DNA of 62,615 nucleotides from Meridianimarinicoccus roseus. Its GTDB lineage: Bacteria; Pseudomonadota; Alphaproteobacteria; Rhodobacterales; Rhodobacteraceae. The position numbers and the translations under genes were made by a program. The stretch spans positions 1 to 62,615 of the forward strand of contig NZ_QGKU01000066.1 in NCBI RefSeq assembly GCF_003172915.1, read 5' to 3'. The notes beneath the pieces are model-generated. The model had not been told where the DNA came from and did not search any database. It was given only the letters and a program-made list of their open reading frames with translations. Positions 32,183 to 48,131 of this stretch are shown piece after piece. How positions within the stretch are numbered: position 1 is the stretch's first letter; each line of letters begins with the position of its first letter.

Positions 32183-32359
32183 TCAGTTCCCCGGCAGCGC
32201 GGCGCAATGCCCGCCACTGGCGACCTGCCCTGATCCAAGCGCGAGCAGCGCCGGGGCACGATACGGGTTCGGCACGCTGCCCGCGGCAAGATCCAGCAGC
32301 AGCACAGTGGCGACAAGCGCCAGTGCCAGTCCGGCGGTCAGCCTGCGCGTCGGGGCCAT
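32183..32359 (-). CDS. 58-residue predicted signal-anchored or secreted peptide, coupled to the thiosulfate transporter gene
   Basis: A 58-codon gene whose ATG overlaps the stop of the upstream transporter gene as TGATG, a strong sign of translational coupling. The product has a positive start (MAPTRR), a hydrophobic segment LTAGLALALVATVLLLDLAA (7-26) that could be a signal peptide or anchor, and a short exported tail with one Cys close to the end (SGGHCAALPGN, Cys52). I do not recognise the family. Position suggests a small accessory partner of the YeeE-type transporter or the periplasmic rhodanese, perhaps carrying sulfane sulfur on its Cys; that is speculation. Up to the SDR gene at 32072 nothing else is seen. 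Confidence 0.6.
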   Translation of the reverse strand: MAPTRRLTAGLALALVATVLLLDLAAGSVPNPYRAPALLALGSGQVASGGHCAALPGN

Positions 32360-33477
32360 CAGCGTGCCTCCAGCCCAAGATGCGGGCGCAGGCGCACACC
32401 AAGAACCGCTCCGGCGAAGGCAGCGAGAAACCAGACCCAGCCGTGCAGGCTGCCGGTAGAGATACCGCTGAAGAACGCGCCCACGTTACACCCGAAAGCC
32501 AGCCGCGACGAGTATCCCAGAAGGAACCCCGCCACGACCGCGGCGGCCCAGGCCCGCGCAGGCAACCGTGGCAGGCCCTGACCCAATCCCGCCCGCCAGC
32601 TTGCGACAAGAGCCGCACCGGCGATAATCCCGATATTCGTGAGCGAGGTGACGTCGGTCAGGACGCTGGCCGCCAGCCTATCCTGGTTACCCGCCGCCGA
32701 CCAGAATGCCGACCCGGCAAGGTCCGCGCCCATCAGGCTGGCGCCCTTGGCCGCCCACAGCCCGAGACCGTAAACCACGCCCCAGGGCTGACCGGCGACG
32801 ACGAGGTTGCCAATCGCCAGCGCGGCGACCAGAGCCGCGGCCAGCCACAGGCGCGGGGCCACGCGGCGGTTTTCCGGCGCGGCGCGCCACCACACGAAGG
32901 CGGCGACTGCAGCCAGCGCGGCCAGCGTCACCGCCAGTCCGCCCGTCCCCGACAGCACGACCAGTGGCGCGGAACCGAGATCCGTCCACCAGAACAGATG
33001 ATACGCCCCTGCGAAACTGCCGATGGCGAAGAACGGCAGCGCCACGAGGCTGACCGGGTTGCCGCTGCCAGCGTTCACCAGTGTGCCTGACCCGCAGCCC
33101 AACACGATTTGCATGCAGATCCCGAACACGAAGGCACCGCCGACCATCGCCAGCCCGACCGGCGCATGGGCACCAGCAAGCTCGCCCGGGTTCGCGGCCA
33201 GCAGCGGGATCGCCACGACGGCGACGATCGCTATCGCGCAGAGCTGCGCGATGATCCCGGCGGGATCGCGGCGCAGGATCATCGCGCGCCACGGCCCGGC
33301 AAAGCCGAACCGCAACCCTTCGAGCGTGATCCCGAAGCCAAGGCCGATGGCCAGCAGAAGACCGTAGCGGGCCCCTGCCAGGACGCCGACCAGCGCCACA
33401 AACAGCATCGCCGCCCCGATCAGGGCGGCGCGCCGCGATACGGTTCCGGCGGGGGCCGGTGCCGTTGTATCGGTCAT
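32359..33477 (-). CDS. YeeE/YedE-family thiosulfate transporter (TsuA-like)
   Basis: A 372-residue inner-membrane protein with about 9-10 hydrophobic helices. Two conserved cysteine loops stand out: GCGSGTLVNAG and FGCNVGAFFSGI. These are YeeE/TsuA signatures whose cysteines relay thiosulfate through the membrane in characterised members. A third Cys precedes the first loop (FGICMQIVLGCGSG). The ATG at 33477 has GAGGAACCGG upstream and starts after the rhodanese gene with a 10-bp gap. It likely imports thiosulfate or a related sulfane compound; the partner TsuB is not seen, but a rhodanese lies upstream. Confidence 0.85.
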   Translation of the reverse strand: MTDTTAPAPAGTVSRRAALIGAAMLFVALVGVLAGARYGLLLAIGLGFGITLEGLRFGFAGPWRAMILRRDPAGIIAQLCAIAIVAVVAIPLLAANPGELAGAHAPVGLAMVGGAFVFGICMQIVLGCGSGTLVNAGSGNPVSLVALPFFAIGSFAGAYHLFWWTDLGSAPLVVLSGTGGLAVTLAALAAVAAFVWWRAAPENRRVAPRLWLAAALVAALAIGNLVVAGQPWGVVYGLGLWAAKGASLMGADLAGSAFWSAAGNQDRLAASVLTDVTSLTNIGIIAGAALVASWRAGLGQGLPRLPARAWAAAVVAGFLLGYSSRLAFGCNVGAFFSGISTGSLHGWVWFLAAFAGAVLGVRLRPHLGLEAR

Positions 33478-33487
33478 TACCGGTTCC

Positions 33488-34432
33488 TCAGAAAACGCCC
33501 TTGATCTGGCTCCAGAGGTTCTGCAGCAGCCCCGGAACATTGGCCATGTCATAACCCGCGTTGGACCAGCCGACCATCGATTCGGGATACAGCTTCACGT
33601 TCTCGATCCCGGCCAGCTCGCTCAGGGCGAACCAGTTGGTCGCGGCCCAGTGACCGGTATTGCAAAAGGACACGATCTCGGTTTCCGAAGTATAGCCCTT
33701 CTCGGCGGCCAGCGCGCGCGCAGCGTCGGCATCGACGATCGCGGGACCGCCGTCGAACCAGCCGGAATGTGTGAAATACTGTGACTGCGGCAGGGTGCCC
33801 GGCTTGGCGGCGGCGGCATGGGCGGTCTTGCCCGACCAGAATTCCTCGGGCCGCGCGTCGAGAAGCAGTGCTTCTTCGTCGCCCGCAACGACCGCGCGCA
33901 CATCATCGGTGGTGGCGAGCCATTGCTCCGAGAAGGTCACTGTGAAATCAGACGGCACCGGCTGCGCAGCCTGTGTGGTGAGCGGTTCGCCTGCCGCAGT
34001 CCATGCATTCACGCCGCCGTTCAGGATCGCCAGCGTGCTGACACCACTGGATTTCAGCGTCCAGTAGACGCGAGCGGCAGCCCCGAAATCAGTTTCGTTC
34101 GCGCCTTGGTAGACGACCACGGTCGGACGGTCTGCGGTCACGCCGATCCCGCTCAGAACCTCGGTCAGAACTTCCTCCGGCACGAGTTGGCCGGGGTTGT
34201 CCGATGGGCCACGGAACAGTCCGTAAGGGGCGTTGACGGCGCCTTCTATATGGCCACCGCCAAACCCGTTTTCACCGGGAGCGCGAATGTCGATCACCAG
34301 CGGGTCGAGCGTGGATTGCACCGCGCTCAGACGCTCCACCGAGATCAGTGGCCCAAAATCGGCCTGGTCCTGCGCGAAGGCGGCGCCCTGCAGGGTCAGC
34401 GCCGCGGCGGTGGCAGCAACGAGAAGTCTCAT
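33488..34432 (-). CDS. Periplasmic rhodanese-type sulfurtransferase
   Basis: A 314-residue two-domain rhodanese with a signal peptide (MRLLVAATAAALTLQGAAFA). The first domain carries VIDIRAPGENGFGGGHIEGAVNAPYG. The second has LLDARPEEFWSGK and the active-site loop CNTGHWA, holding the persulfide-forming Cys; this loop differs from the usual CxxGxR/T. AGGAGG lies seven bases before the ATG. It is the first gene of a three-gene operon with the thiosulfate importer and the small peptide, so it probably processes thiosulfate, polysulfide or thiocyanate outside the inner membrane. Confidence 0.87.
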   Translation of the reverse strand: MRLLVAATAAALTLQGAAFAQDQADFGPLISVERLSAVQSTLDPLVIDIRAPGENGFGGGHIEGAVNAPYGLFRGPSDNPGQLVPEEVLTEVLSGIGVTADRPTVVVYQGANETDFGAAARVYWTLKSSGVSTLAILNGGVNAWTAAGEPLTTQAAQPVPSDFTVTFSEQWLATTDDVRAVVAGDEEALLLDARPEEFWSGKTAHAAAAKPGTLPQSQYFTHSGWFDGGPAIVDADAARALAAEKGYTSETEIVSFCNTGHWAATNWFALSELAGIENVKLYPESMVGWSNAGYDMANVPGLLQNLWSQIKGVF

Positions 34433-36424: not shown

Positions 36425-37075
36425 TTACCGCGCCGGGCGCAGACCGGCCAGATAGACAGCCGCGACGCCTTTCGCATCCAATGCGAATTCCGGATTGCGC
36501 GCATGTTGCGCGGCCACGATGGCCCCATCCACCAGAACGACGATGCCCCGCGCCACGTCTTCGGGCCGGTCGACCTGCATCTCGATCGCGGCAGCCTTCA
36601 GCCAGGTAAACAGATGCGCTTTGTGCACGTCGGCCGCCGCACGGATCGCGGGATTGCCGGTTTCGAACTCGGCCACCGCGTTGATGAACGGACACCCGAA
36701 ATAGTTCTCATCGGCGAACCAGTCGCGCAAAACATCGAATACCGCCAGAACACGGTCCTCCGGACGACCGCGCACCTGCCCCAGTCGCCCGAAGAACCAG
36801 CGCCGCCATGCCGCGCCTTCGGCCTCCAGCACGGCTTCGATCAGCGCGTCCTTGGAGGCAAAGTGGTTATAGAGTGTCGCCTTGGCGGTACCCGCGCGCG
36901 CAATGATCGTGTCGATCCCCGTGGCCGAGAAGCCATTGTGACAGAAAAGATGCGACGCCGCCGACAGGATCTTGTCGCGGGCCGTGGCGGGCGCGTGGCG
37001 GGCGAAATTCCAGTCTGGGGCCGACTCGGTGTCGGAAATCGCCGGTGCGGGGTCGCGGGCGTCGAAAGCGGTCAT
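36425..37075 (-). CDS. TetR/AcrR-family transcriptional regulator
   Basis: A 216-residue TetR regulator. The helix-turn-helix region reads ARDKILSAASHLFCHNGFSATGIDTIIARAGTAKATLYNHF (about 30-70). The C-terminal ligand domain includes DWFADENYFGCPFINAVAEF, which matches the TetR_C group with a buried Cys (FGCPF). The ATG at 37075 is chosen because an ATG at 37237 would add 54 residues that lie over the operator region. It is divergent from the sulfonate-type ABC operon, and three similar palindromes lie between them, so it probably represses both itself and that operon. Confidence 0.88.
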   Translation of the reverse strand: MTAFDARDPAPAISDTESAPDWNFARHAPATARDKILSAASHLFCHNGFSATGIDTIIARAGTAKATLYNHFASKDALIEAVLEAEGAAWRRWFFGRLGQVRGRPEDRVLAVFDVLRDWFADENYFGCPFINAVAEFETGNPAIRAAADVHKAHLFTWLKAAAIEMQVDRPEDVARGIVVLVDGAIVAAQHARNPEFALDAKGVAAVYLAGLRPAR

Positions 37076-37143
37076 GGCTGCGCCTTGGTCAAGAAGCCGT
37101 GAAATCTGTCTGGCATAAATGGACGGAACAGGCAATCGGGCTG

Positions 37144-37155
37144 GACCGTTCTGTC
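37144..37155. promoter_or_regulatory. Candidate TetR operator, site A
   Basis: GACCGTTCTGTC fits the palindromic pattern GAC-N-G-N2-C-N-GTC on the opposite strand (GACAGAACGGTC). It lies 69 bp upstream of the TetR start codon, next to a T-rich stretch. The same pattern recurs at 37289 and 37336. Confidence 0.5.
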
Positions 37156-37288
37156 TTTTCTTTTTCGGAATCAGCGGCCCGCTGAACACACCATCGGACC
37201 ATTCGATTGCCCTCAACTTGGCGGAATAATGCGCCAATAATGGGCTTTTTCCGTCTGAATTTTAGCCAGTTCCGAATCCTGATGGAAA

Positions 37289-37300
37289 GACAGGTCTGTT
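37289..37300. promoter_or_regulatory. Candidate TetR operator, site B
   Basis: GACAGGTCTGTT matches the shared pattern at all defined positions except the last base. It lies 76 bp before the ABC ATPase start codon and 47 bp (start to start) from site C. Confidence 0.45.
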
Positions 37301-37335
37301 CACTTGACCCGGGAAAACCATACCCGGTCAGATAA

Positions 37336-37347
37336 GACAGAACAGTC
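37336..37347. promoter_or_regulatory. Candidate TetR operator, site C
   Basis: GACAGAACAGTC fits GAC-N-G-N2-C-N-GTC perfectly and lies 28 bp before the ABC ATPase start codon, a position suited to blocking transcription. Between sites B and C an imperfect inverted repeat (TGACCCGGG / CCCGGTCA, 37305-37330) is also present. Confidence 0.5.
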
Positions 37348-37375
37348 CAGATGACGCCGCAAGGGTGCAGAACAC

Positions 37376-38215
37376 ATGATGGTAGAGCCGATCACACGGG
37401 ACAACGCAGGCCGGACCGCAATGCCCCACGTCGCCGGGCGGCCCAGCGGGGCGCATGTCGCGGTGCGCGGCCTGTCACATGTCTATCGGCGAAGCGACGG
37501 CCCGGTGCTGAGCGATATCGGCTTCACCGCAGAACCAGGCGAGATCGTGGCGCTGCTAGGCCGGTCCGGCTGCGGCAAGTCCACGCTGCTCCATATGGTG
37601 TCTGGGCTGAGCATGCCGACCGCCGGCGAGGTGGTGATCAACGGTAATGCCGTGCGCGGCCCGTCGCCCCGCTGGGTGATGATGTTCCAGGCGCCGTCGC
37701 TTTATCCCTGGATGACCGTCGCGCAGAACGCGGCGCTGGGGTTACGCTTCGCCCGTCGAATGCACGAAGCGCGGGCGCGTATTCCCGAAGTGCTGGACCT
37801 TGTGGATCTTGGCGGTTTCGCCGACCGCAACGCGCAGGAACTGTCCGGCGGGCAGCAACAGCGCGTGGCGCTGGCTCGGTCGCTGGCCCCGAAACCCGAG
37901 GTGCTGCTGCTGGACGAACCGTTCTCGGCGCTGGATGCCTTCACAAGGCGCAATCTGCAACAGGACGTACGGAAGATCGCACGCGGGCTTGGCCTGACGC
38001 TGCTGATCGTGACCCATGACGTCGGTGAGGCGGTCCGCATGGCCGACCGCGTGCTGGTGCTGGACGCCCATCCCGGACGTGTGGCCAGCGACACGCGTAT
38101 CACCCTGACCGATGCCGACCGCAACGGCGGAAACGACGCGTTCCAACGCGAACACACCCGCCTGATGCAAACCTATTCCGACATCGCGCAGGTGCCCGGC
38201 GGCAACCTGACCTAA
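37376..38215 (+). CDS. Nitrate/sulfonate/taurine-type ABC transporter ATPase (SsuB/TauB family)
   Basis: A 279-residue ATPase with Walker A GRSGCGKST, the Q-loop MMFQAPSLYPWMTV, signature ELSGGQQQRVALARSL, Walker B LLLDEPFSALD, and H-loop VTHDVGEAV. These match the SsuB/TauB/NrtD family. The first 30 residues form a polar leader. AAGGG lies upstream of the tandem ATGs (37376/37379). First gene of the plus-strand operon under the TetR operators; it powers the permease at 39515. Confidence 0.9.
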   Translation: MMVEPITRDNAGRTAMPHVAGRPSGAHVAVRGLSHVYRRSDGPVLSDIGFTAEPGEIVALLGRSGCGKSTLLHMVSGLSMPTAGEVVINGNAVRGPSPRWVMMFQAPSLYPWMTVAQNAALGLRFARRMHEARARIPEVLDLVDLGGFADRNAQELSGGQQQRVALARSLAPKPEVLLLDEPFSALDAFTRRNLQQDVRKIARGLGLTLLIVTHDVGEAVRMADRVLVLDAHPGRVASDTRITLTDADRNGGNDAFQREHTRLMQTYSDIAQVPGGNLT

Positions 38216-38255
38216 CCCTGCAATCCGACTTCACCCGACACAAAGCGAGACGCCG

Positions 38256-39518
38256 ATGACCCATGACCCCCACACCCGCCCGATCGACCTGCACGCGGCC
38301 TGCTGCGGCCATGACGGCGTGGACCACGCCAAGCGGCAGACGCTCGACATGCTGGCGCAGGGCGGTCTGGCGGCGGCACTGGCGACGCTGATGGGCGGCC
38401 TGCCCGGCCCGGCGCGGGCACAGGACGACGACATCGTGCGCATCGGCTACCTGCCGATCACCGACGCAACCCCGCTGCTGGTGGCACATGCCAAGGGATT
38501 CTACGCAGACGAGGGGCTGGAGGCGGAACAGCCAACACTGATCCGGGGCTGGTCGCCGCTGATCGAAGGCTTTGCCGCGAACAAGTTCAACCTCGTGCAT
38601 TTCCTCAAGCCGATCCCCGTCTGGATGCGCTACAACAACGACTTCCCGGTCAAGATCATGGCCTGGGCACACACCAACGGCTCCGCACTTGTGGTCGGGC
38701 GGCATACCGAAATCACTGATTTCTCGGGACTTGGCGGCAAGCAGGTCGCAGTGCCGTTCTGGTATTCGATGCACAACATCGTCCTGCAATACGCGCTGCG
38801 ATCGGCCGGGATCACGCCGGTGATCAAGGCGCAGGGCGAACCGCTGGCCCCCAATGAATGCAACCTTCAGGTCCTGCCGCCGCCCGAGATGCCTCCCGCG
38901 CTCGCCGCTCGCAAGATCGACGCCTATATCGTGGCCGAACCGTTCAACGCGCTTGGCGAGCTGATGGCTGGCGCAAGGATGCTGCGCTTCACCGGCGACA
39001 TCTGGAAGAACCATCCTTGCTGCGTGGTCTGCATGAACGAGCAGGTGACCCAGGCCAAGCCGGAATGGACTCAGGCGGTAATGAACGCCGTGGTCCGCGG
39101 GTCGATCTACGCCAGCCAGAACAAGGAAGAGGTGGCCGAACTGCTGTCCAAGGACGGCATGGGCTACCTGCCCGCCCCCGCGCCTGTCGTTAAGCGCGCG
39201 ATGACGGTCTATGACGACAATGCCGAGTACATGGAAACCGGCGCGATCAAGAACGTTGCCGAATATCAGAACGGCCGGATCGACTTCCAGCCCTGGCCCT
39301 ACCCGTCGGCCACCCGGATGATCGTCGAGGCGATGACCGAAACAGTAGTCAGCGGCGAGACGACTTTCCTGCAGGGGCTCGATCCGCAGTTCGTGGCAGA
39401 CGACCTCGTGGATTACGCCTTCGTAAAGGCCGCGCTGGAAAAATTCCCCGAGTGGAAGAACGATCCCTCGGTCAATCCCGGCGACCCGTACAACCGCGAA
39501 GAGGTGCTCAAGCTATGA
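38256..39518 (+). CDS. Substrate-binding protein of the nitrate/sulfonate-type ABC importer
   Basis: A 420-residue NMT1/SsuA/NrtA-like binding protein. It opens with a Cys/His-rich leader (DLHAACCGHDGVDHAKRQTLD) before a hydrophobic stretch (MLAQGGLAAALATLMGG) ending GPARAQ. This pre-leader plus basic pair resembles the Tat-type leaders of NrtA/CmpA-like proteins, although Lys-Arg replaces Arg-Arg. The mature part reads VRIGYLPITDATPLLVAHAKGFYADEGLEAE, then LVHFLKPIPVWMRYNNDFPVKIM, with a CC pair in HPCCVVCMNEQV. The stop overlaps the permease ATG. The ligand is unknown; the downstream genes point to an organosulfur compound. Confidence 0.87.
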   Translation: MTHDPHTRPIDLHAACCGHDGVDHAKRQTLDMLAQGGLAAALATLMGGLPGPARAQDDDIVRIGYLPITDATPLLVAHAKGFYADEGLEAEQPTLIRGWSPLIEGFAANKFNLVHFLKPIPVWMRYNNDFPVKIMAWAHTNGSALVVGRHTEITDFSGLGGKQVAVPFWYSMHNIVLQYALRSAGITPVIKAQGEPLAPNECNLQVLPPPEMPPALAARKIDAYIVAEPFNALGELMAGARMLRFTGDIWKNHPCCVVCMNEQVTQAKPEWTQAVMNAVVRGSIYASQNKEEVAELLSKDGMGYLPAPAPVVKRAMTVYDDNAEYMETGAIKNVAEYQNGRIDFQPWPYPSATRMIVEAMTETVVSGETTFLQGLDPQFVADDLVDYAFVKAALEKFPEWKNDPSVNPGDPYNREEVLKL

Positions 39519-40330
39519 GCGCGGTCGCCGACATTCCGCAAGGCCGCGCCGCGCCGGGGCTCGGCCGCGCGCGGGGCCTCGTGAACGCCGTTCTGGGGAT
39601 CGGCCTGCTGCTTGGCTTGTGGTGGATCGGCGGCGAAATGATCGCGCGCAACGACGATCTGTTCGCCTTCGCCAGTTTCGCGCCCGGCCCCACGCTGTCA
39701 CGGCTGGCCGAACTGGTCGCCTCGGGCGCGGTGATCGACATGTCGGTGCCGTCGCTCTATCGGGTCGGCATGGGACTGGCGCTGGCGGCCGCGATCGGCG
39801 TGCCCGTTGGTATCCTGATCGGACGCGTGGCGATCCTGCGCGAGATCACCAACGTTCCGTTTCAGTTCCTGCGGATGATATCGCCACTGTCGTGGATGCC
39901 CATCGCGGTGATGGCCTACGACACCTGGGACGGGGCGATCATCTTCCTGATCTTCGTTGCCGCCGTGTGGCCGATCCTGTTCGCCACTGCAGCCGGGCTA
40001 CGCCGGATCGACCCTGCCTGGCTGAAGGTTGCGCGAAACCTTGGCGCCAACCCCTTCCACATGCTGTTCGTGGTGATCCTGCCGGCCATCTCGGTCGACA
40101 TTTTGACCGGCATCCGGCTCGCGCTTGGCGTGGCCTGGGTAGTGTTGGTTCCGGCCGAATACCTAGGGGTCACGTCCGGGCTCGGATACGCGATCAACGA
40201 TGCGCGCGACACGCTGGACTACGCCAGCCTCGGCGCGACCGTGGTCATCATCGGCGTCATCGGGTTCTTCCTCGATTTCGCGCTGATGATGGCGATCAAG
40301 AAATTCAACTGGGTGCGCAGCGACGCCTGA
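39515..40330 (+). CDS. ABC transporter permease (SsuC/TauC family)
   Basis: A 271-residue inner-membrane permease with about six helices. The ATPase-contact EAA-like loop is ARNLGANPFHMLFVVILPAI, and FQFLRMISPLSWMPIAVMAY is typical of the family. Its ATG at 39515 overlaps the binding-protein stop by four bases; a longer in-frame start inside that gene is rejected. Confidence 0.9.
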   Translation: MSAVADIPQGRAAPGLGRARGLVNAVLGIGLLLGLWWIGGEMIARNDDLFAFASFAPGPTLSRLAELVASGAVIDMSVPSLYRVGMGLALAAAIGVPVGILIGRVAILREITNVPFQFLRMISPLSWMPIAVMAYDTWDGAIIFLIFVAAVWPILFATAAGLRRIDPAWLKVARNLGANPFHMLFVVILPAISVDILTGIRLALGVAWVVLVPAEYLGVTSGLGYAINDARDTLDYASLGATVVIIGVIGFFLDFALMMAIKKFNWVRSDA

Positions 40331-40363
40331 GCATCCGCAAGATCCAAAAAGAAGGAGGATCCC

Positions 40364-40900
40364 ATGTCTGAACCCGCAACCGTGCTGACCGGCTGTCTTG
40401 CGCCGATCGACAAGACCGGGCTGCAAGGCCTGATCGAAAAGGGCAAGGCCGACCCGACGGCGGTCAAGACGCTGAAATGCAAGACGGTCGCCGAAGGCAA
40501 GTTTCGCCACGCCAACTACATCCGCGATCTCGACCCCTACATCGTGGACGAGCCGCCGGGGCTGCTGGGCGACGACACCGCGCCCAACCCGTCCGAGGCC
40601 TCGCTGGCAGCACTCGGATCCTGCGTGGCGGTCGGGCTGCATGCCAACGCCGTGGCGCGCGGCATCACCGTGCACAAGCTGGAACTGGAACTCGAGGGCG
40701 ACCTGAACATCACCGCGGTCTGGGGCACCGGCGACACGTCAGAAAAGCCCGTTGGCTTCACCGATGTGCGCATCAAGGTTCACATGGAAGGCGACTGCCC
40801 GAAATCCGAGATCGACGAGTTGGTCGCCCATGTCATCCAGTGGTCGCCGGTGTTCAACACCTTCTCGCGGCCGGTGAACATGGAAGCCATCGCCGTCTGA
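40364..40900 (+). CDS. OsmC-family protein with a single conserved cysteine
   Basis: A 178-residue OsmC-like protein. The first conserved Cys sits in EASLAALGSCVAVGLHANAVARGI (C87). At the second redox-Cys position (usually CP) the sequence has Ser: QWSPVFNTFSRPV (S161). Classical OsmC/Ohr peroxidases need both cysteines, so this protein may bind or transfer a thiol, persulfide or acyl group instead. AAGGAGG precedes the ATG. It lies between the importer and the flavoprotein/rhodanese genes, separated from the next gene by a strong hairpin. Confidence 0.84.
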   Translation: MSEPATVLTGCLAPIDKTGLQGLIEKGKADPTAVKTLKCKTVAEGKFRHANYIRDLDPYIVDEPPGLLGDDTAPNPSEASLAALGSCVAVGLHANAVARGITVHKLELELEGDLNITAVWGTGDTSEKPVGFTDVRIKVHMEGDCPKSEIDELVAHVIQWSPVFNTFSRPVNMEAIAV

Positions 40901-40916
40901 TCCGAACCCGACCCCA

Positions 40917-40944
40917 GGTGCCGGGCGGACCGCCGCCCGGCACC
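40917..40944 (+). terminator. Intercistronic hairpin after the osmC-like gene
   Basis: GGTGCCGGGCGG (40917-40928) and its perfect complement CCGCCCGGCACC (40933-40944) flank a 4-nt loop. There is no U-tract, and the next gene's ribosome site (AGGAGAG) follows within 8 bases. It is therefore more likely an mRNA-stability or processing element within the operon. Confidence 0.5.
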
Positions 40945-40964
40945 ATACCCATCAGGAGAGAGCC

Positions 40965-42071
40965 ATGAACATCGCCCTGCCCATCGACCCTGTGGACACC
41001 GCAGAGGTCGACCGCATCACGACCCAGACGCTGGCCCCGATGGTCCGCGAGATCGACGCCGGCGCATACCCCGAAGCCGTCATGCGTGCCTTCGGCGGCG
41101 CGGGCGCCTATGGCAGCCATGTCGACGCCCCCGATGACAGTATCGACGTGATGCGCGCGATCGCGGCAATGTCGCGGGCGGGCGAGGTCTGCACCTCCAC
41201 CGCCTTTTGCATGTGGTGCCAGGACGCGCTGGCCTGGTACATATATTCGTCGGACAACGAGCATCTTAAGACGACGCTCGGCCCACGCGTCGCCAGCGGC
41301 GAGGTGCTCGGCGGCACCGGCCTGTCGAACCCCATGAAGGCGGTGAACGGGATCGAACCGATGCGCCTGAGGGCGCAGCGCGTGCCGGGCGGCTACCGCG
41401 TCAAGGGCGTGCTGCCCTGGGTGTCGAACGTGACCGAGGACAGCTATTTCGGGATCATCTTCGACGCGCCCGTCGAAGGCAGCGAGACCCCGAAAAAGGT
41501 CATGGCGGTGGCCTTCGGCGGCTGGGATGGCGTGAAACTGGTGCTGGACCACGACTTCGTGGCGATGGGCGGCACAGCGACTTGCCAGGTGCAGTTCCGT
41601 GACGCCTTCATTCCGGACGATCATATCCTCGCCGATCCGGCTGAGGCCTTCATCAAGCGTATCCGCGGCGGCTTCGTGCTCATGCAGTGCGGCATGGCCA
41701 GCGGCATGGTGCAAAGCTGCATCGACCTGATGGATCAGGTGCAGACCCCGCTGGGCCATGTGAACCGCTACCTCGAAAAGCAGCCCGACGACTTCCGCAC
41801 CGAACTTGCTGCACTCGTGGCCGAGATCACCGAGCTGGCGCGCACGCCCTACGATCCGTCGAACGCCTATTTCCGCCGCGTGCTGACAGCACGCCTGAAG
41901 GGCGGCGAGATGGCGGTAGAGGCGGCGCATTACGCAATGCTGCATTGCGGCGCGCGCGGCTATGTCAGCCAGGGCGCAGCACAGCGGCGCCTTCGCGAAG
42001 CGTATTTCGTCGCCATCGTGACACCCGCGACCAAACAGTTGCGCAAGATGCTGGCCGACCTGCCAGCCTGA
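40965..42071 (+). CDS. Acyl-CoA-dehydrogenase-fold flavoprotein lacking the catalytic Glu
   Basis: A 368-residue member of the acyl-CoA dehydrogenase superfamily: N-terminal helical domain, middle beta domain (GTGLSNPMKAVNGIEPMRLRAQRV, WVSNVTE) and C-terminal helical domain. In true dehydrogenases a Glu lies in YEGT near the C-terminus; here the aligned segment is REAYFVAIVTPATKQLRKML, with Thr (T353) at that place. Loss of Glu is a feature of class-D flavin-dependent monooxygenases of the DszC/SfnB type that use reduced FMN and oxygen. I infer a monooxygenase or desulfurising role, supported by the sulfonate-type importer upstream and the rhodanese 16 bp downstream. A non-CoA dehydrogenase is the alternative. 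Confidence 0.75.
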   Translation: MNIALPIDPVDTAEVDRITTQTLAPMVREIDAGAYPEAVMRAFGGAGAYGSHVDAPDDSIDVMRAIAAMSRAGEVCTSTAFCMWCQDALAWYIYSSDNEHLKTTLGPRVASGEVLGGTGLSNPMKAVNGIEPMRLRAQRVPGGYRVKGVLPWVSNVTEDSYFGIIFDAPVEGSETPKKVMAVAFGGWDGVKLVLDHDFVAMGGTATCQVQFRDAFIPDDHILADPAEAFIKRIRGGFVLMQCGMASGMVQSCIDLMDQVQTPLGHVNRYLEKQPDDFRTELAALVAEITELARTPYDPSNAYFRRVLTARLKGGEMAVEAAHYAMLHCGARGYVSQGAAQRRLREAYFVAIVTPATKQLRKMLADLPA

Positions 42072-42087
42072 CCAACAGGAGAGTACC

Positions 42088-42942
42088 ATGTCGAACACGT
42101 TGATCACTCCGGCCGACCTAGCCGCCATGCCTGCGGGCAGCACCGTCATCATCGACACCCGTGACCCGGAAAGTTATGCCGCAGGGCATATCGAAGGCGC
42201 GGTGAACCTGCATGACATCTTCACCTACCTCGCCACGTCCGACAGCGCGGGCATGGCCGATCTTGCACAGAAGTTCGCGGCCGATTTCGGAGCGGCGGGT
42301 CTTGATGGCAAGAAAACCGCGGTGATCTATGAACAATCGATGAACACTGGCTTCGGGCAGTCCTGTCGTGGCTACTTCCTGCTCGCCTATCTGGGCTACC
42401 CTTCGATAAAGGTCCTGCATGGCGGACTGGCGGCCTGGACCGCGGCGGGCATGCCCCTGTCCACAGATCCGGTCACGCCGGAGCCCGGCGGGTTCGAGAT
42501 CGACCCGGCGGCGGCCGAGATCATGATGGACGTGGACGCGATGAAGGCCGCGCTGGACGACGCGGAGGCCGCGATCCTCGACGTGCGCGATGTGGACGAA
42601 TGGACCGGTGAAAGCTCCTCGCCCTACGGCAAGGACTTCTGCCCGCGCAAGGGCCGCATCCCTGGCGCTGTCTGGATCGAATGGTACCGGATGATGAAGC
42701 CGTCGGCAGACGGGCCGGTGATGAAATCCGCGGTCGAAATCCTGGCCGAGTGCGCCACGGTGGGTATAACGCCAGATACGCCGGTGCGGCTTTACTGTTT
42801 CAAGGGCGCACGCGCGTCCAACACGTTCCTCGCGCTGAAAGAAGCCGGAATCAAGGACGTCCGGATGTATTTCGGGTCGTGGAACGAATGGTCCCGCGAT
42901 CCGTCGCTGCCCATCGACGAAGGCCTGCCCTACCACCCCTGA
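42088..42942 (+). CDS. Cytoplasmic rhodanese-type sulfurtransferase
   Basis: A 284-residue tandem rhodanese. The N-terminal domain (VIIDTRDPESYAAGHIEGAVNL) has no Cys in its active loop (YEQSMNTG). The C-terminal domain carries DVRDVDEWTG and the catalytic loop CFKGARA (C237). The ending (GSWNEWSRDPSLPIDEG) is the SseA-like GSWSEW segment. No signal peptide, in contrast to the periplasmic rhodanese at 33488. It should receive sulfane sulfur released by the pathway and pass it to cyanide, thiols or sulfite. Eighteen residues of the loop region (residues 173-190) are an insertion with a Cys (KDFCPRKG). Confidence 0.88.
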   Translation: MSNTLITPADLAAMPAGSTVIIDTRDPESYAAGHIEGAVNLHDIFTYLATSDSAGMADLAQKFAADFGAAGLDGKKTAVIYEQSMNTGFGQSCRGYFLLAYLGYPSIKVLHGGLAAWTAAGMPLSTDPVTPEPGGFEIDPAAAEIMMDVDAMKAALDDAEAAILDVRDVDEWTGESSSPYGKDFCPRKGRIPGAVWIEWYRMMKPSADGPVMKSAVEILAECATVGITPDTPVRLYCFKGARASNTFLALKEAGIKDVRMYFGSWNEWSRDPSLPIDEGLPYHP

Positions 42943-43061
42943 GCCGAGCATCGCGGCGCGGAACGGGTTGCGCCGCGCGCCGCTGCTGCGCCAAATAGCA
43001 TGCAGGATCGCGGGCGGCTTGAAAGGGCTGCCCGCGCAACACTAACCAGTTGCGGGAGCGC

Positions 43062-44273
43062 ATGGACAACATCGTCGTGATCGGAGCCGGGCAGGCCGGG
43101 TCTGCCCTTTGTGCGAAACTGAGAGAGCTGGGCTTCGGCGGCGCGCTCACTCTGGTAGGTGAAGAACCAGTCCCACCCTACCAGCGACCGCCACTTTCGA
43201 AGAAATACATGTTGGGCGACATGGCGCTGGACCGGATGTTCCTGCGCCCGGAAGCCTTCTATGCCGACCGTGACATCGCCTTGCGGCTGGGCACGCGCGC
43301 GGATGCGCTGGACACGGTCGCGCGGCGCGTCACGCTGTCGGACGGCACCACGCTGGCCTACGACGCGCTGGCGCTCACCACGGGCGCACCGGCGATGCGC
43401 CTGCCCGCCGCGATAGGGGGGGCGCTGCGCGGCGTTCACACGATGCGGACCCTTGACGATGCCGACGCTCTGGCGCGCGAATGCACACCGGGGCGCCACA
43501 TGCTGGTGATCGGCGGCGGCTATATCGGGCTGGAGGCGGCGGCGGTCGCCGCCGGGCGCGGCCTGTCGGTGACCTTGGTGGAACAGGCCCCCCGCATCCT
43601 CGCGCGCGTCGCTGCACCCGAGACTGCAGACTGGTTCCGCGCCCTGCACGCGGCCCACGGCGTGCGCATCATCGAAGGGACGGGCGTGGCGCAACTGACC
43701 GAAACGGAGGGCCGTTTCAACGGGGCGGAGCTGACGGACGGGCGGCGCATTGACGCCGACTTCGCAGTGGTCGGCATCGGCATACGCCCCGCCACTGCGC
43801 TGGCAGAAGCGGCGGGAATCGCCATCAACAACGGGATAGCGGTGGACGAACTCGGCCGAACCTCCGCACCGGGGATCTGGGCGGCGGGCGATTGCGCATC
43901 CTTTCCGCATCGTGGCGGACGACTCCGGCTGGAAAGCGTGCCCAACGCCATCGAGCACTCGGAAGCGACCGCAGCCGCCATGCTGGGCGGCACCGATCCC
44001 TATGTCGCCAAACCGTGGTTCTGGTCCGACCAGTATGACGTGAAGCTGCAGATCGCGGGTCTGAACACCGGCTATGACCGCGTGGTTGTGCGCGACGATG
44101 CAGGGGCACGCTCGCACTGGTACTACGGCGGCGACACGCTGTTGTCGGTGGACGCAATGAACAATCCGCGCGCCTACATGGTCGCCAAGCGAATGATCGA
44201 GGCTGGCCAGTCCCCAGCACCCGCACGCGTGACGGATCCGGCGCTGACGCTGAAGGACCTGCTGGCCGCCTGA
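43062..44273 (+). CDS. FAD-dependent ferredoxin/rubredoxin reductase-type oxidoreductase
   Basis: A 403-residue two-dinucleotide-binding flavoprotein. It has an FAD motif GAGQAG (8-13), PPYQRPPLSKKYMLGD, an NAD motif GGGYIGLEAAAVA, the FAD-binding APGIWAAGDCA, and a C-terminal reductase domain (PWFWSDQYDVKLQIAGL). This pattern matches ferredoxin-NAD reductases that feed oxygenases, such as those of P450 and dioxygenase systems. The ATG at 43062 has GGGAG just upstream; an in-frame TTG four codons earlier is less likely. No ferredoxin or rubredoxin gene is seen nearby. It could supply electrons or reduced flavin to the adjacent flavoprotein; this is inferred. The 118-bp gap before it has a possible GU-containing hairpin near 43010-43040. 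Confidence 0.86.
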   Translation: MDNIVVIGAGQAGSALCAKLRELGFGGALTLVGEEPVPPYQRPPLSKKYMLGDMALDRMFLRPEAFYADRDIALRLGTRADALDTVARRVTLSDGTTLAYDALALTTGAPAMRLPAAIGGALRGVHTMRTLDDADALARECTPGRHMLVIGGGYIGLEAAAVAAGRGLSVTLVEQAPRILARVAAPETADWFRALHAAHGVRIIEGTGVAQLTETEGRFNGAELTDGRRIDADFAVVGIGIRPATALAEAAGIAINNGIAVDELGRTSAPGIWAAGDCASFPHRGGRLRLESVPNAIEHSEATAAAMLGGTDPYVAKPWFWSDQYDVKLQIAGLNTGYDRVVVRDDAGARSHWYYGGDTLLSVDAMNNPRAYMVAKRMIEAGQSPAPARVTDPALTLKDLLAA

Positions 44274-44276
44274 CGG

Positions 44277-45455
44277 TCAGTCCCGCCGGACCGGCGCCCC
44301 CCCGCGCCAGACCCCTGCCAGAACCGGCCCTGCACCATCGGCTGCGTCGACAAGGTGCACAAGATCGGCGCGCGCCCCCGGCACAAGCGCGCCGATATGC
44401 CCGCCCCGCCCTGCGACCCGCGCGGGCACGGCTGTCGCCATGCGCAGCGCGTGGCCCAGCGGAAGCCCCACATCCCGGCACAGCACACGCAGCGCCGTTG
44501 TCAGGTCCAGATCGGCCCCGGCAAGGGTCCCATCCGCCAGCGTCAACCGCCCGTCGCGGCGCCCGATTCGGCGGCCGTTCAACGTGAAGCCGTCCAGATC
44601 CGTGCCGGCGACCGCCATCGCGTCGCTGACTAGGAACACGTCGCCCGGACCGGCCTTTGCGCGCAGCCCGGCACCCATCGCGGCCGGATGCACGTGGATG
44701 CCGTCCGCAATCAGACCGGCGCTGACCCGCCCGTCCGCCAGCGCGGCGCCGACCACGCCCGGCTCGCGATTGCCCAGCTGGCGCATTGCGTTGAACAGAT
44801 GCGTCACACAGCGCGCGCCCGCATCAAAGGCCGCGCGGCAGGTGGCGAAATCGGCATCGGTGTGGCCCAGAGACACCACCGCTCCGGCCCGCGTCAGCGC
44901 GGCGATCTGGCCGTGGTCAGCCGCTTCGGGGGCCAGCGTGACCATCAGTACCGGCAGCGCATGAGCTGCCGCCAGCAGGGCGTCGAGATCCTGCCTCTGC
45001 ATCGGGCGGATAAGGGCCGGATCATGCGCGCCCTTGCGCCGCGGGTCGAGATGCGGACCTTCGAGATGCAAGCCGATGATGCCAGGAACACTTTCCGCCA
45101 CCGCTGCGCACACCGCTGCGACTGCCGCGGCCGTTACCTCGGGCGTATCGGTGATCAGCGTCGGCAGGATGCTGGTCGCGCCAAGCCGGGCGTGCGCCTG
45201 CGCCATGCGCCGCAGGGTTTTGGGCTCCGGCGCGTCGTTCAGCATCAGCCCGTCCCCGCCATTGACCTGCAAGTCCACATAACCCGGCACGAGCATCCCG
45301 CCGCCAAGATCCTGCACCGCGGTTCCGGCGGGGATATCGGAAGGGCTGGCAACCGCACGGATCGTGCCACCCTGCATCACCACTGCCGCGTCGCGGTGCC
45401 ATTCCGCGCCGTCGTGGATCAGCGGCGCGCGCAGGGCGGACAGCGGGCCGGTCAT
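44277..45455 (-). CDS. nagA: N-acetylglucosamine-6-phosphate deacetylase
   Basis: A 392-residue amidohydrolase removing acetate from GlcNAc-6-phosphate. Metal and substrate residues occur in GYVDLQVNGGDG, GLHLEGPHLDPRRKGAH (metal Glu), VSLGHTDAD, THLFNAM and ADGIHVHPAAM, with the catalytic Asp in LVSDAMAVAG. The ATG at 45455 overlaps the SIS gene's stop by four bases; an in-frame extension further upstream lies inside the SIS gene. Last gene of the minus-strand amino-sugar operon, and it ends 4 bp from the FAD reductase gene's end. Confidence 0.93.
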   Translation of the reverse strand: MTGPLSALRAPLIHDGAEWHRDAAVVMQGGTIRAVASPSDIPAGTAVQDLGGGMLVPGYVDLQVNGGDGLMLNDAPEPKTLRRMAQAHARLGATSILPTLITDTPEVTAAAVAAVCAAVAESVPGIIGLHLEGPHLDPRRKGAHDPALIRPMQRQDLDALLAAAHALPVLMVTLAPEAADHGQIAALTRAGAVVSLGHTDADFATCRAAFDAGARCVTHLFNAMRQLGNREPGVVGAALADGRVSAGLIADGIHVHPAAMGAGLRAKAGPGDVFLVSDAMAVAGTDLDGFTLNGRRIGRRDGRLTLADGTLAGADLDLTTALRVLCRDVGLPLGHALRMATAVPARVAGRGGHIGALVPGARADLVHLVDAADGAGPVLAGVWRGGAPVRRD

Positions 45456-46483
45456 ACCGTCTGGGTCACTTTCTTCAGGTGGCGCGGCGTGTCGGGGTCG
45501 ATTCCGCGTTCCACCGCAAGCCGTTCTACCACCGCGTAGAAGGTTGCAATCAGCGCCAGAGGGTCGGTCAGCGGATGCCCGGTGCGCACGTGCGCCAGCG
45601 ACGCCGCCCCGCCCCGCGCAGGCCCGGTGATGAAGGCCGCTGCGCCCTTGGCCGCGATCTGCGCAGCGATGTCGGCGACCATGGGTTCGGCCGCATCGGC
45701 CGCCGCAAGGCACAGCACCGGGAACCCCGCGTCCACGATGGACACCGGGCCATGCAGCACCTCGGCCGAGGAATAGCTTTCCGCGTGCAGCAGGCAGGTT
45801 TCCTTGAACTTCAGCGCCGCCTCGTTCGACATCGCCCAGGACGGGCCGCGACCAAGCGTATAAAGCGACGTGCGCGGGCCGATGGCGGCGCGCAGTTCCG
45901 GCCAGTCAAGCGCGACGGCATCCGCCAGCGCCTCGGGCAGCGCATGGACCGCGTTCAGCAGCGCCGCGTCCCCGCGCCAGGCCGCCAGCATCCGAAGCCC
46001 GGCCACGGCGGAGCAAACAAAGGTCTTTGTGGCCGCCACGCTGCGTTCGGGCCCGGCATGCAGCGCCAGCGTCCGGTCACATGCCGCGGCAAGCGGCGAG
46101 TCCGGGTCATTCGTGATCGCAAGGCTGAGCGCGCCATCGCGCCGTGCCGCGCGCGCCATTTCTACGATGTCGGGACTCTGCCCCGACTGCGACACCGAAA
46201 GGCAGGCGGCGCGGTCGAGCTTCATACGCCGCTTGTAGACCGACGCCACCGACGGGCCGACGGAGGCGACCGGAACACCCAGTTCCAGTTCGGCAGCGTA
46301 TTTCAGGAAGCTGCAGACGTGGTCGGACGACCCCCGTGCCACTGTTACCAGAACCGCCGGGTCAAGCACCCGCAGATCGGCTGCGGCGCCATCGATGGCC
46401 GCCGCGCCGTCGGTCAGCAGCCGGTCGACCGCCTGCGGGATCTCGTCGATCTCCTGACGCATCAGGCTGGGGGTCGGGGTCAT
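45452..46483 (-). CDS. SIS-domain sugar isomerase/deaminase (GlmS C-domain/AgaS-like)
   Basis: A 343-residue protein with two SIS domains and no glutaminase domain. Seen: VARGSSDHVCSFLKYAAE, SVSQSGQSPDIVEMARAA, TLGRGPSWAMSNEAALKFKETCLLHAESYSSAEVLHGPVSIVD and the C-terminal ERGIDPDTPRHLKKVTQTV, which match the isomerase part of GlmS. Such proteins act as glucosamine-6-phosphate deaminases (NagB-II) in proteobacteria lacking NagB. With NagA downstream this is the likely role: GlcN-6-P to fructose-6-P plus ammonia. AGGAG lies just upstream of the ATG at 46483. Confidence 0.88.
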   Translation of the reverse strand: MTPTPSLMRQEIDEIPQAVDRLLTDGAAAIDGAAADLRVLDPAVLVTVARGSSDHVCSFLKYAAELELGVPVASVGPSVASVYKRRMKLDRAACLSVSQSGQSPDIVEMARAARRDGALSLAITNDPDSPLAAACDRTLALHAGPERSVAATKTFVCSAVAGLRMLAAWRGDAALLNAVHALPEALADAVALDWPELRAAIGPRTSLYTLGRGPSWAMSNEAALKFKETCLLHAESYSSAEVLHGPVSIVDAGFPVLCLAAADAAEPMVADIAAQIAAKGAAAFITGPARGGAASLAHVRTGHPLTDPLALIATFYAVVERLAVERGIDPDTPRHLKKVTQTV

Positions 46484-47247
46484 GGCGTCTCCTGCGGTGT
46501 GGCGATCTGGAGTTCGGCGACGAAGTCGTAGGCGTCTCCGCGATAGAGCGAACGGGTGAATTCCACCACCCGTCCGGTCGCGAGGTAGGACACCCGTTCG
46601 ATCCGAAGCCCGGCCGCATGTTCGGCGACGCCCAGTCGGTCGGCATCGGCCCGGCCGAGATTGACCGCCGAGATCTTCTGCGTGGCGCGCACCGGTCGGT
46701 TGCCCTGGGCGTCCAGCACCTCGTAAAGCGATGTGGTCACGGCGGTCGGCACCGGAAGCAGGTCCGGCGGCAACGAAGCGCGTTCGAGGGCCATCGGCTG
46801 CCCGCCCGAAAGCCGAAGCCGCGCGATCCGCGCCACCTGCGCCTCGGGCGCCAGAGACAGCGCCTGCGCCTCGTCGGCCCCTGGCAGGAACAACCCCCGT
46901 TCCAGCCAGATCGATCGGGTTACCAGCCCACGCTGAGCCATGTCCTCGCTGAAGGATGTCAACCGCGTCAGCGACTGCAGCACCTTGGGGCGCGGGGTGA
47001 CGAAAGATCCGGACCCCTGCTTCTGTTCCACCAGCCCGCGTTCCACCAGCGCATGGATCGCCCGGCGCACAGTGACCCGTGACAGGCCAGTCAGCGCGGC
47101 GATCTCGCGCTCGGGCGGAAGCGGCGCGCCCGGAGGGAGCAAGCCCTCGTCCATGGCCGCCTCCAGCCGCTGACGCAGGCGTGCATAGCGCGGCCCGCCC
47201 CCGGCATCGACCCAACCTTCGGGTGCAAGGAAATCCCCGATGCTCAT
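46480..47247 (-). CDS. GntR-family regulator with UTRA sensor domain
   Basis: A 255-residue GntR/HutC-type regulator. The winged helix is at about 20-85 (LPPEREIAALTGLSRVTVRRAIHALVERGLVEQKQGSGSFV), the UTRA ligand domain at about 100-250 (YEVLDAQGNRPVRATQKISAV, ERVSYLATGRVVEFTRSLYRGD). UTRA regulators of this type sense phosphorylated amino sugars. It overlaps the kinase gene upstream and the SIS gene downstream by four bases each, so it is made with the pathway enzymes and probably controls both arms of the divergent locus through the paired sites at 48130 and 48242. Confidence 0.9.
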   Translation of the reverse strand: MSIGDFLAPEGWVDAGGGPRYARLRQRLEAAMDEGLLPPGAPLPPEREIAALTGLSRVTVRRAIHALVERGLVEQKQGSGSFVTPRPKVLQSLTRLTSFSEDMAQRGLVTRSIWLERGLFLPGADEAQALSLAPEAQVARIARLRLSGGQPMALERASLPPDLLPVPTAVTTSLYEVLDAQGNRPVRATQKISAVNLGRADADRLGVAEHAAGLRIERVSYLATGRVVEFTRSLYRGDAYDFVAELQIATPQETP

Positions 47248-48131
47248 GCGGCGGCCCCGTCCGCCAGCCGGGCGGCCATCCGCAGCGCCCCGTCCAGCGC
47301 CGTTGCCTTTGCCGGGACGATGGCGGCGGCGGTCGGCGCGGGCAGGTAGGGCACGTAGTGCGGCGCAAGCCCCCCGGTCAGGCAAAGTGGGTCCGGTGGA
47401 CGCCATCCCAGCGCCTCCAGCGCGGCCTGCACATGTGCCGCGCCCGCGCGCATCAGGAACAGCCCTGCAGCGTCCCCGTCCCGCGCCGCCGCGACAACGC
47501 GCGGCGCCAGCGCGGCGTAATCCGCCGGACGCGCCCCTGCCACGAAGGCCAGAATACCCTCAGGACCGCCGTCATACCCGTCGCGGGTGGCCCGGCTAAG
47601 CGCCGTTGCGGGAACCAAGCCGTCTTCCACATGCAGCACCCGTGCGAGCAGCCCGCGCCCCAGCCACGCGCCCGACGCCTCGTCGCCCAGCACGAAACCC
47701 CATCCGCCGCGCAGGTCCACCGCGCCGCCCGCCTGTCGTGCGAAGAACGATCCGGTGCCCAGCCCCGCCACTGCCCCGTCCCCGTCACCGAGCGCACCCA
47801 CGACCGCGGGCACGCAGTCCTCGACAACCTTGGCCCGGCCGAGCGGCAGCCGCGCGGCTATGGCGGCGGCGACACGCGGGCCGGTCACCCCGGCCAGCCC
47901 CAGCACGCCACAGGCGCGCTCCAGCCCGTCCCCCTCCAGCCCGGCAAGGCGCGCGGCCTCGTGCAACCCCGCGCGAAGCGTGGCGACTGCGCCATCAGGG
48001 TCCGAATGGACATTGGCCGAGGCGACATGAAGTTCGGTCCTCTCGTCGCCCTTCAAAAGCGCGATCCGGCACGATGTGCCGCCGCCGTCGACGCCGATCA
48101 GACAGGAAGGGTTATGCCGCAACATATGCAT
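47244..48131 (-). CDS. BadF/BadG/BcrA/BcrD-type ATPase, probable N-acetyl amino-sugar kinase
   Basis: A 295-residue ASKHA-fold kinase. PHOSPHATE-1 motif IGVDGGGTSCRIAL (residues 12-25), PHOSPHATE-2-like GLGTGSFFAR, and ADENOSINE-type LTGGLAPHYVPYL. The BadF group includes GlcNAc and MurNAc kinases. In this locus it likely phosphorylates imported GlcNAc or MurNAc at C6 for NagA or MurQ. Two in-frame ATGs at 48131 and 48125 follow the repeat-bearing region closely, leaving a short leader; AAAGG lies about 11 bases ahead of the first. First gene of the minus-strand arm. Confidence 0.84.
   Translation of the reverse strand: MHMLRHNPSCLIGVDGGGTSCRIALLKGDERTELHVASANVHSDPDGAVATLRAGLHEAARLAGLEGDGLERACGVLGLAGVTGPRVAAAIAARLPLGRAKVVEDCVPAVVGALGDGDGAVAGLGTGSFFARQAGGAVDLRGGWGFVLGDEASGAWLGRGLLARVLHVEDGLVPATALSRATRDGYDGGPEGILAFVAGARPADYAALAPRVVAAARDGDAAGLFLMRAGAAHVQAALEALGWRPPDPLCLTGGLAPHYVPYLPAPTAAAIVPAKATALDGALRMAARLADGAAA

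Follow-up and report, generated by a model that had tools for sequence, protein, structure and literature searches.

A cyanase-associated gene cluster with a Glu-less acyl-CoA-dehydrogenase-fold flavoprotein in Meridianimarinicoccus roseus: a candidate pathway from thiocyanate to cyanate

Here we describe a gene cluster of Meridianimarinicoccus roseus that may encode the uptake of thiocyanate (SCN-) and its desulfuration to cyanate. The cluster lies in a 62,615-nucleotide stretch of DNA (contig NZ_QGKU01000066.1 of assembly GCF_003172915.1), referred to below as the window, and consists of a TetR-family regulator divergent from genes for an ABC importer, a one-cysteine OsmC protein, a flavoprotein of the acyl-CoA dehydrogenase fold without the catalytic Glu, a rhodanese and a ferredoxin-reductase-type oxidoreductase (Table 1). 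A first-pass annotation, made from the DNA letters alone, had named these genes, all of which our gene and domain calls found at the places it gave, and had proposed the import and oxygenation of an organosulfur compound. This proposal is supported in part. Support was lacking for a general organosulfur substrate, for instance a sulfonate or sulfone: cyanase is the commonest extra partner of the cluster and points to thiocyanate or cyanide; the partner was not visible from the window because the M. roseus genome keeps its cyanase gene (cynS) on another contig. We consider it likely that the pathway yields cyanate, and about an even call that the cluster as a whole is a thiocyanate uptake and desulfuration pathway ending there. 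The finding is real and more specific than the earlier reading: a Glu-less enzyme of the acyl-CoA dehydrogenase fold stands at the center of what is probably a cyanate-yielding pathway.

Cyanase is the main partner of the cluster. In 295 genomes of the window's family, sampled at one per genus, the flavoprotein (E up to 1e-60) was found in 11, the window's genome included, and the other ten copies are 62-68% identical. Cyanase (PF02560) is encoded in 40 of the 295 genomes, in all 11 with the flavoprotein versus 29 of the 284 without it (p = 7.6e-11), and genomes at least 90% complete give 9 of 9 against 38 of 260 overall (p = 1.3e-8). A phylum-wide sample, in which 70 of 398 genomes encode cyanase, has it in 13 of 16 genomes with the flavoprotein (E up to 1e-45) versus 57 of 382 without (p = 2e-8); all of these tests treat genomes as independent and are weakened by relatedness. 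Cyanase lies within the fetched stretch in eight of the 11 flavoprotein-bearing family genomes and on another contig in G153, in G181 and in the genome of the window, where cynS is found on contig C27 behind genes for an NrtA/CynA-like binding protein, a permease and an ATPase. As the commonest extra partner, cyanase suggests cyanate as the product and thiocyanate (or cyanide) as the substrate.

Cyanase was also recurrent in the neighborhoods of a first set of 36 loci (the window, 10 plasmid-collection records and 25 genomes). A scan of named genome contigs returned at least 565 confirmed relatives, of which the best 80 were taken; the 58 with at least 8.5 kb on both sides were used for counts and 22 were left out. 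Neighborhoods, with flanks of up to about 9 kb, were mapped by tblastn of reference proteins, which replaced gene calling by longest open reading frame after the largest recurrent group in high-GC loci appeared to consist of antisense frames. OsmC and TetR homologs accompany the flavoprotein in all 58 fully flanked loci, while rhodanese was found in 54 and cyanase, within the fetched flanks, also in 54. Binding proteins of the window type occur in 23 of these loci and of the cyn type in 32, with one or the other in 54. The first-pass annotation had presumed a conserved cluster, and its genes indeed travel together rather than being scattered apart.

At the level of genus-like groups, cyanase is present in 18 of 21, being absent in Fluviibacterium, Filomicrobium and Ferrovibrio, and it is also missing from one of two Rhodopseudomonas loci. 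The position of cynS varies by lineage: it is housed in the gap between rhodanese and reductase genes in Pseudothioclava, Thalassovita, Thioclava and two Celeribacter (L069-L072, L077), and elsewhere follows the reductase, comes immediately after the flavoprotein or trails a cyn-type ABC cassette. In Rhodopseudomonas L097 and Rhodoblastus L108 it comes immediately after the permease of this importer. Linkage in several arrangements is stronger evidence than a single inherited order. OsmC and the flavoprotein are found paired in Alpha-, Beta- and Gammaproteobacteria alike, and their pairing is therefore not chance. Three loci (L016, L057 and L061) carry OsmC, flavoprotein and importer with no rhodanese or cyanase match nearby; the genome of L061 (G440) has cyanase on another contig and that of L057 (G475) has none. 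Such a minimal unit may work without rhodanese and cyanase.

The flavoprotein has a catalytic Glu at neither of the two known positions for the base of acyl-CoA dehydrogenases. In four of five alignments (short-chain acyl-CoA dehydrogenase, SCAD, and 1ws9), T353 aligns with the Glu of IYEGT or IGEGT, with a one-residue gap immediately after it, at P354, that leaves this match slightly uncertain. All 116 homologs (tblastn; 116 loci, one each) carry both T353 and P354; this set, like the other homolog sets used here, includes duplicates (some loci were fetched twice, L039 and L068 being one such pair) and a large share of Bradyrhizobium sequences. In the fifth alignment, the LDYER Glu of isovaleryl-CoA dehydrogenase, which we take to be the other known place for the catalytic base, falls on M240, a position that is L or M in 114 of the 116. 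The Thr in place of Glu noted in the first-pass annotation is thus confirmed, and a Glu supplied from elsewhere, which it had entertained, is not found at the second known site. The cofactor interface has changed as well. In the profile alignment, L263 and V266 take the places of the Arg and Phe of the RxxFG motif, and the single-sequence alignment puts P262 and H265 there; the Gln before GGxGY is opposite L326 (L in 114 of 116 homologs); neither alignment restores these residues, which presumably hold the ADP part of FAD in acyl-CoA dehydrogenases. These substitutions fit a protein that no longer dehydrogenates acyl-CoA, and it may use FMN. Cys76 was considered as a sulfur acceptor and dropped, as the aligned SCAD carries a Cys there too.

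Loss of the Glu had been taken in the first-pass annotation as a likeness to class-D flavin monooxygenases such as DszC and SfnB, which, like XiaF and 3-HSA hydroxylase of the same class, we assume to lack this residue. The flavoprotein shares with them a fold, as judged from a predicted model (mean pLDDT 92.9), without the catalytic Glu, yet they are not its nearest relatives. Sequence and profile searches of solved structures return SCAD and related acyl-CoA dehydrogenases as nearest, and Foldseek with the predicted model places acyl-CoA dehydrogenases first, at 14-20% identity across the 50 matches listed. XiaF was matched at E = 7e-4 in the single-sequence search, and among the matches listed by the profile search 3-HSA hydroxylase (2rfq) reached E = 4e-7 over positions 138-224 only, versus 1e-25 for SCAD.

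The OsmC protein keeps one of the two catalytic cysteines, as first described. All 109 homologs keep C87, R48, E63 and E78, and in every one of them S161-P162 occupies what we take to be the usual place of the second, resolving Cys of OsmC/Ohr proteins. The Arg-Glu-Cys site of the peroxidases (presumably R48, E78 and C87) is therefore present and the resolving Cys is not; two further cysteines, C11 and C39, are found in 101 and 102 of the 109 homologs. The rhodanese has its active-site loop, CFKGAR, in the C-terminal domain in 91 of 92 homologs, the remaining one not being covered by the alignment, and its translation suggests a cytoplasmic protein. OsmC can be exchanged: an AhpD-type protein takes its place in Moraxella, Bartonella and Neisseria records and a SCO4226-like (DUF4242) protein on the Synechococcus elongatus plasmid pANL. 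Across these loci, the flavoprotein with a small partner thus varies least, and cyanase, rhodanese and reductase are frequent additions to this core. In Neisseria, L023 (7294-9062) and L062 contain the AhpD-type gene, presumably NMB0995 (NafA, PMC3128610), the flavoprotein gene and a short stretch like a rubredoxin-reductase fusion, next to an apparent D-lactate dehydrogenase gene.

This interchange of OsmC and AhpD-type proteins at the same place would suit a stress system, in which the small protein, together with the flavoprotein, would remove hypothiocyanite, cyanate adducts or peroxides by reduction or other detoxification instead of feeding metabolism, and both AhpD-type genomes of the phylum-wide sample are without cyanase. 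However, 54 of 58 loci have an importer next to the cluster and some have sulfur oxidation genes there, and we regard a stress role as very improbable.

The importer had been called sulfonate/nitrate-type in the first-pass annotation. Among solved structures, the binding protein has its relatives in importers of nitrate and bicarbonate. Curated NCBIfam models for sulfonate and taurine importers stayed below their cut-offs (SsuA 95 bits vs 163.5, TauA 17.7 vs 304.25, TauC 100.6 vs 342 and SsuC 75.1 vs 347) and a sulfonate or taurine importer was rejected on this basis. The nearest permease models, NtrB, SaoP and TauC, are all under cut-off; matches to SaoX, SaoP and SaoA, likewise below cut-off, were taken as general similarity and a selenium or Sao link was discarded. 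At the place of HPEK in solved NrtA, and of HPGK or QPKK in related solved domains, the window binding protein and those of cynS cassettes, about 26-30% identical to it, have HPCC. The Lys of HPxK, which we take to be the nitrate ligand of NrtA, is thus missing. The 12 commonest motif forms of each group comprise 49 and 61 sequences, all HxCC in the first group and all HPCC in the second. This single shared motif may indicate a shared pseudohalide-type ligand.

Among candidate substrates, thiocyanate fits best a pathway that starts with a small-anion importer and ends in cyanate and sulfur; we would put its chances near even, and higher than those of a sulfonate. In the mechanism we propose, the CynA-like importer would take up SCN- and the flavoprotein would oxygenate it at sulfur to an OSCN--like intermediate. 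Electrons would be supplied by the ferredoxin-reductase-type protein or, elsewhere, by the rubredoxin-reductase fusions found after the flavoprotein in Marinobacter, Acetobacter and Caballeronia. OsmC would use its one catalytic cysteine, Cys87, to capture the intermediate as a sulfenyl thiocyanate, and attack of water on the nitrile carbon would release cyanate and leave a persulfide on OsmC. The rhodanese would then take the sulfane sulfur for assimilation or oxidation, and cyanase would convert cyanate and bicarbonate to ammonia and CO2. This proposed chemistry would use every conserved part, though the OsmC-persulfide step as drawn is rather doubtful. Only tentatively do we suggest a new enzyme type, in which a flavin oxygenase of the acyl-CoA dehydrogenase fold and a one-cysteine OsmC sulfur acceptor convert thiocyanate to cyanate and a persulfide on the protein. 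Many aerobic heterotrophs, Bradyrhizobium and roseobacters among them, would then possess a complete pathway to thiocyanate nitrogen and sulfur with its own importer.

The region between the TetR gene and the operon carries the palindrome (A)ACAGAMCKGTYTGT(T). A best match of at least 12/16 to the consensus GACAGACCGGTCTGTC was found in 85 of 97 such regions (the usable ones from 102 loci) and in about 1.1% of first-order Markov shuffles, a contrast flattered by a consensus drawn from the same, often closely related, regions. The cynABDS genes of the window genome, on contig C27, adjoin their own PAS/sigma54 activator, and no GACAGACCGGTCTGTC-like site of at least 12/16 was found upstream of them. 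Joint regulation of cynABDS and the cluster is therefore unsupported in this genome.

Rhodanese in 54 of 58 loci and sulfur-oxidation-type genes beside some of them bear out the sulfur-handling context seen in the first-pass annotation. SoxB is found in all 11 flavoprotein-bearing family genomes and in 186 of the 295 (p = 0.006), a modest signal. Half of a Blh-type persulfide dioxygenase adjoins the cluster in L059 and L060, at 383 and 390 bits against a cut-off of 625 that applies to the two-domain protein, and a weaker MBL relative (104 bits) follows cynS in Caballeronia L018. Rhodoblastus L108 has SoxB (873 bits, over cut-off) together with a TsuA-like protein (78 bits against a cut-off of 400) and a SoxH-like one (139 against 280), and in Rhodopseudomonas L097 an SQR-III-like protein was matched (94 against 525). 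We regard these neighbors as hints and not as a rule. On pANL (L021), a relative of the flavoprotein (31%) is followed by an ATPase, a binding protein (43%) and a permease (45%), about 3 kb from cysK and on the same plasmid as sulfur-regulated srpI; the plasmid differs from the window in the SCO4226-like protein in place of OsmC, and the fetched stretch of 15.8 kb gave no match to rhodanese or cynS. Induction of srpI by sulfur starvation is described in passages of PMC8049743.

These sulfur genes, the pANL context and the loss of the Glu would also be compatible with import and oxygenation of an organosulfur compound (a sulfonate, sulfone or thiol, with C-S bonds), with cyanase as a neighbor without a direct role. 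Genes for OsmC-like, rhodanese, SQR and MBL-rhodanese fusion proteins lie in one cluster of Rhodococcus erythropolis MI2, and these proteins, with persulfide-dioxygenase-like ones among them, are raised during dithiodibutyrate use (passages of PMC5157978). There, in contrast to the window, an acyl-CoA dehydrogenase is in another cluster, and a word search of PMC5157978 returned neither cyanase nor thiocyanate. The Rhodococcus case supports a part for OsmC in sulfur handling, and it keeps the organosulfur reading open too. Set against that reading are the co-occurrence with cyanase in two samples, the in-operon positions of cynS and the sulfonate-importer models that were not reached, and we consider it quite improbable. 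Another possibility is a different small compound bearing nitrogen and sulfur, such as thiourea, a thiocarbamate, an organic thiocyanate or an isothiocyanate, that is oxygenated to cyanate or a precursor. This would account for the cyanase link together with the sulfur genes, and for a DSBA-domain protein, annotated as HCCA isomerase, that stands between rhodanese and cyn genes in several loci. The binding protein, however, resembles those for small inorganic anions, and its HPCC is common to the cynS-linked ones; such a substrate appears improbable. The DSBA-domain protein often follows the rhodanese (L015, 9917-10522; similarly in L041, L043, L045, L047 and L048).

Several observations weigh against a thiocyanate pathway. 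The named loci are the best 80 of at least 565, and 32 of the 58 fully flanked ones are from Bradyrhizobium; in four of the 58 no binding protein of either type lies close by, and a reductase homolog is found in only 18. Three of the 16 flavoprotein-bearing genomes of the phylum-wide sample are without cyanase (G475, Neisseria-like G397 and AhpD-type G619). The closest solved folds found by Foldseek are ordinary acyl-CoA dehydrogenases, SoxB is common across the family, each named neighboring sulfur gene was matched in only 1 to 3 of 116 loci, and the window genome's own cynABDS has the promoter region without an operator-like site noted above. Rhodanese can also detoxify cyanide. Cyanase, according to passages of PMC6504805, is common in heterotrophs and an unreliable marker of the cyanate pathway of thiocyanate use. 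In L061 and L153 (G440), finally, the cluster lies near cydAB, 5-aminolevulinate synthase and a Nit6803-type nitrilase cluster, the latter including radical SAM and AIR-synthase-like proteins (4610-8336 of L061 and 6989-10656 of L153). We take the Nit6803 nitrilase to be part of a cluster tied to cyanide use, and this stretch is a possible cyanide or thiocyanate island.

The principal alternative is that the flavoprotein is a cyanide monooxygenase, which would convert cyanide to cyanate for cyanase, with rhodanese as a second cyanide sink and the importer recovering cyanate. The neighborhood of L061 and L153 and the rhodanese in 54 of 58 loci agree with this, and a two-step route through cyanide monooxygenase and cyanase, which likewise oxygenates a pseudohalide to cyanate, is described, as an activity, in passages of PMC5778177. 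On the other hand, hydrogen cyanide should need no ABC importer, yet a binding protein is nearby in 54 of 58 loci, and the OsmC, persulfide-dioxygenase, SQR and Sox neighbors would have no obvious role. The Nit6803 nitrilase, over cut-off in 11 of the 295 family genomes, is in none of the 11 with the flavoprotein, though a zero would arise by chance with P = 0.65. Cyanide as the substrate therefore seems unlikely to us.

A pathway from thiocyanate to cyanate and sulfur would bring about the same overall change as that of Thioalkalivibrio and Thiohalobacter, in which thiocyanate dehydrogenase carries out the oxidation (passages of PMC5778177 and PMC6504805), in place of the flavoprotein, importer, OsmC and rhodanese of the window. 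Besides this enzyme, the same passages name thiocyanate hydrolase and an earlier-postulated, uncharacterized hydrolase as attacking thiocyanate. For Nitrospina gracilis, the conversion of thiocyanate to cyanate is ascribed at the annotation level to a rhodanese together with cyanate hydratase; this fits the rhodanese and cyanase found here, while the relevant passages of PMC3578206 name no linked flavoprotein, OsmC or importer. The cynABDS cassette shares with the present cluster cyanase and HPCC binding proteins, often in the same locus, but is without flavoprotein, OsmC and rhodanese. A literature search, mostly outside subscription journals and preprints, found, among the titles and abstract openings listed, none joining the flavoprotein or OsmC to thiocyanate or cyanase. 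The cluster is a concrete further candidate for thiocyanate use; it occurs in culturable bacteria and comes with its importer, its regulator and a motif resembling an operator. If true, the proposal would give functions to a widespread family of Glu-less acyl-CoA dehydrogenases and to one-cysteine OsmC proteins, and would bear on the clean-up of thiocyanate waste.

Coordinates of the cluster are collected in Table 1. Two starts were corrected: the TetR gene most likely begins at the ATG at 37075, inside a longer open reading frame, replacing the earlier 37237, and the reductase gene most likely at the ATG at 43062.

Table 1. Features of the cluster, in positions of the window
Feature	Position	Strand	Remarks
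TetR-family regulator, divergent from operon	36425..37075	-	TetR_N E=4e-16
Candidate TetR operator, 12/16 to GACAGACCGGTCTGTC	37140..37155	.	Consensus read by eye from the same region set
Candidate TetR operator, 13/16 to GACAGACCGGTCTGTC	37285..37300	.	Best site in the window
ABC importer ATPase	37376..38215	+	ABC_tran E=2.5e-35
Substrate-binding protein, NrtA/CmpA/CynA type	38256..39518	+	NMT1_2 E=4.5e-42; motif IWKNHPCC
ABC importer permease	39515..40330	+	BPD_transp_1 E=9e-20
One-cysteine OsmC protein	40364..40900	+	OsmC E=1e-17; C87, R48, E63, E78 invariant
Acyl-CoA-dehydrogenase-fold flavoprotein without catalytic Glu (T353)	40965..42071	+	Proposed thiocyanate oxygenase
Two-domain rhodanese	42088..42942	+	Rhodanese E=1.4e-35; loop CFKGAR at C237
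Rhodanese-reductase gap, cynS-free in the window	42943..43061	+	
FAD-dependent ferredoxin-reductase-type oxidoreductase	43062..44273	+	Pyr_redox_2 E=4e-63, Reductase_C E=3e-30; proposed electron supply

No RNA elements or tRNAs were found in the window. The minus strand at 32359-34432, roughly 2 to 5 kb away from the TetR gene, holds genes for a sulfur transporter of YeeE/YedE type (TsuA model, 48.5 bits against a cut-off of 400) and for a two-domain rhodanese whose translation start resembles an export signal. On the other side of the cluster, also on the minus strand (44277-48131), the translations suggest genes resembling those for N-acetylglucosamine use: a NagA-like protein, a SIS-domain protein, a GntR regulator and a sugar kinase.

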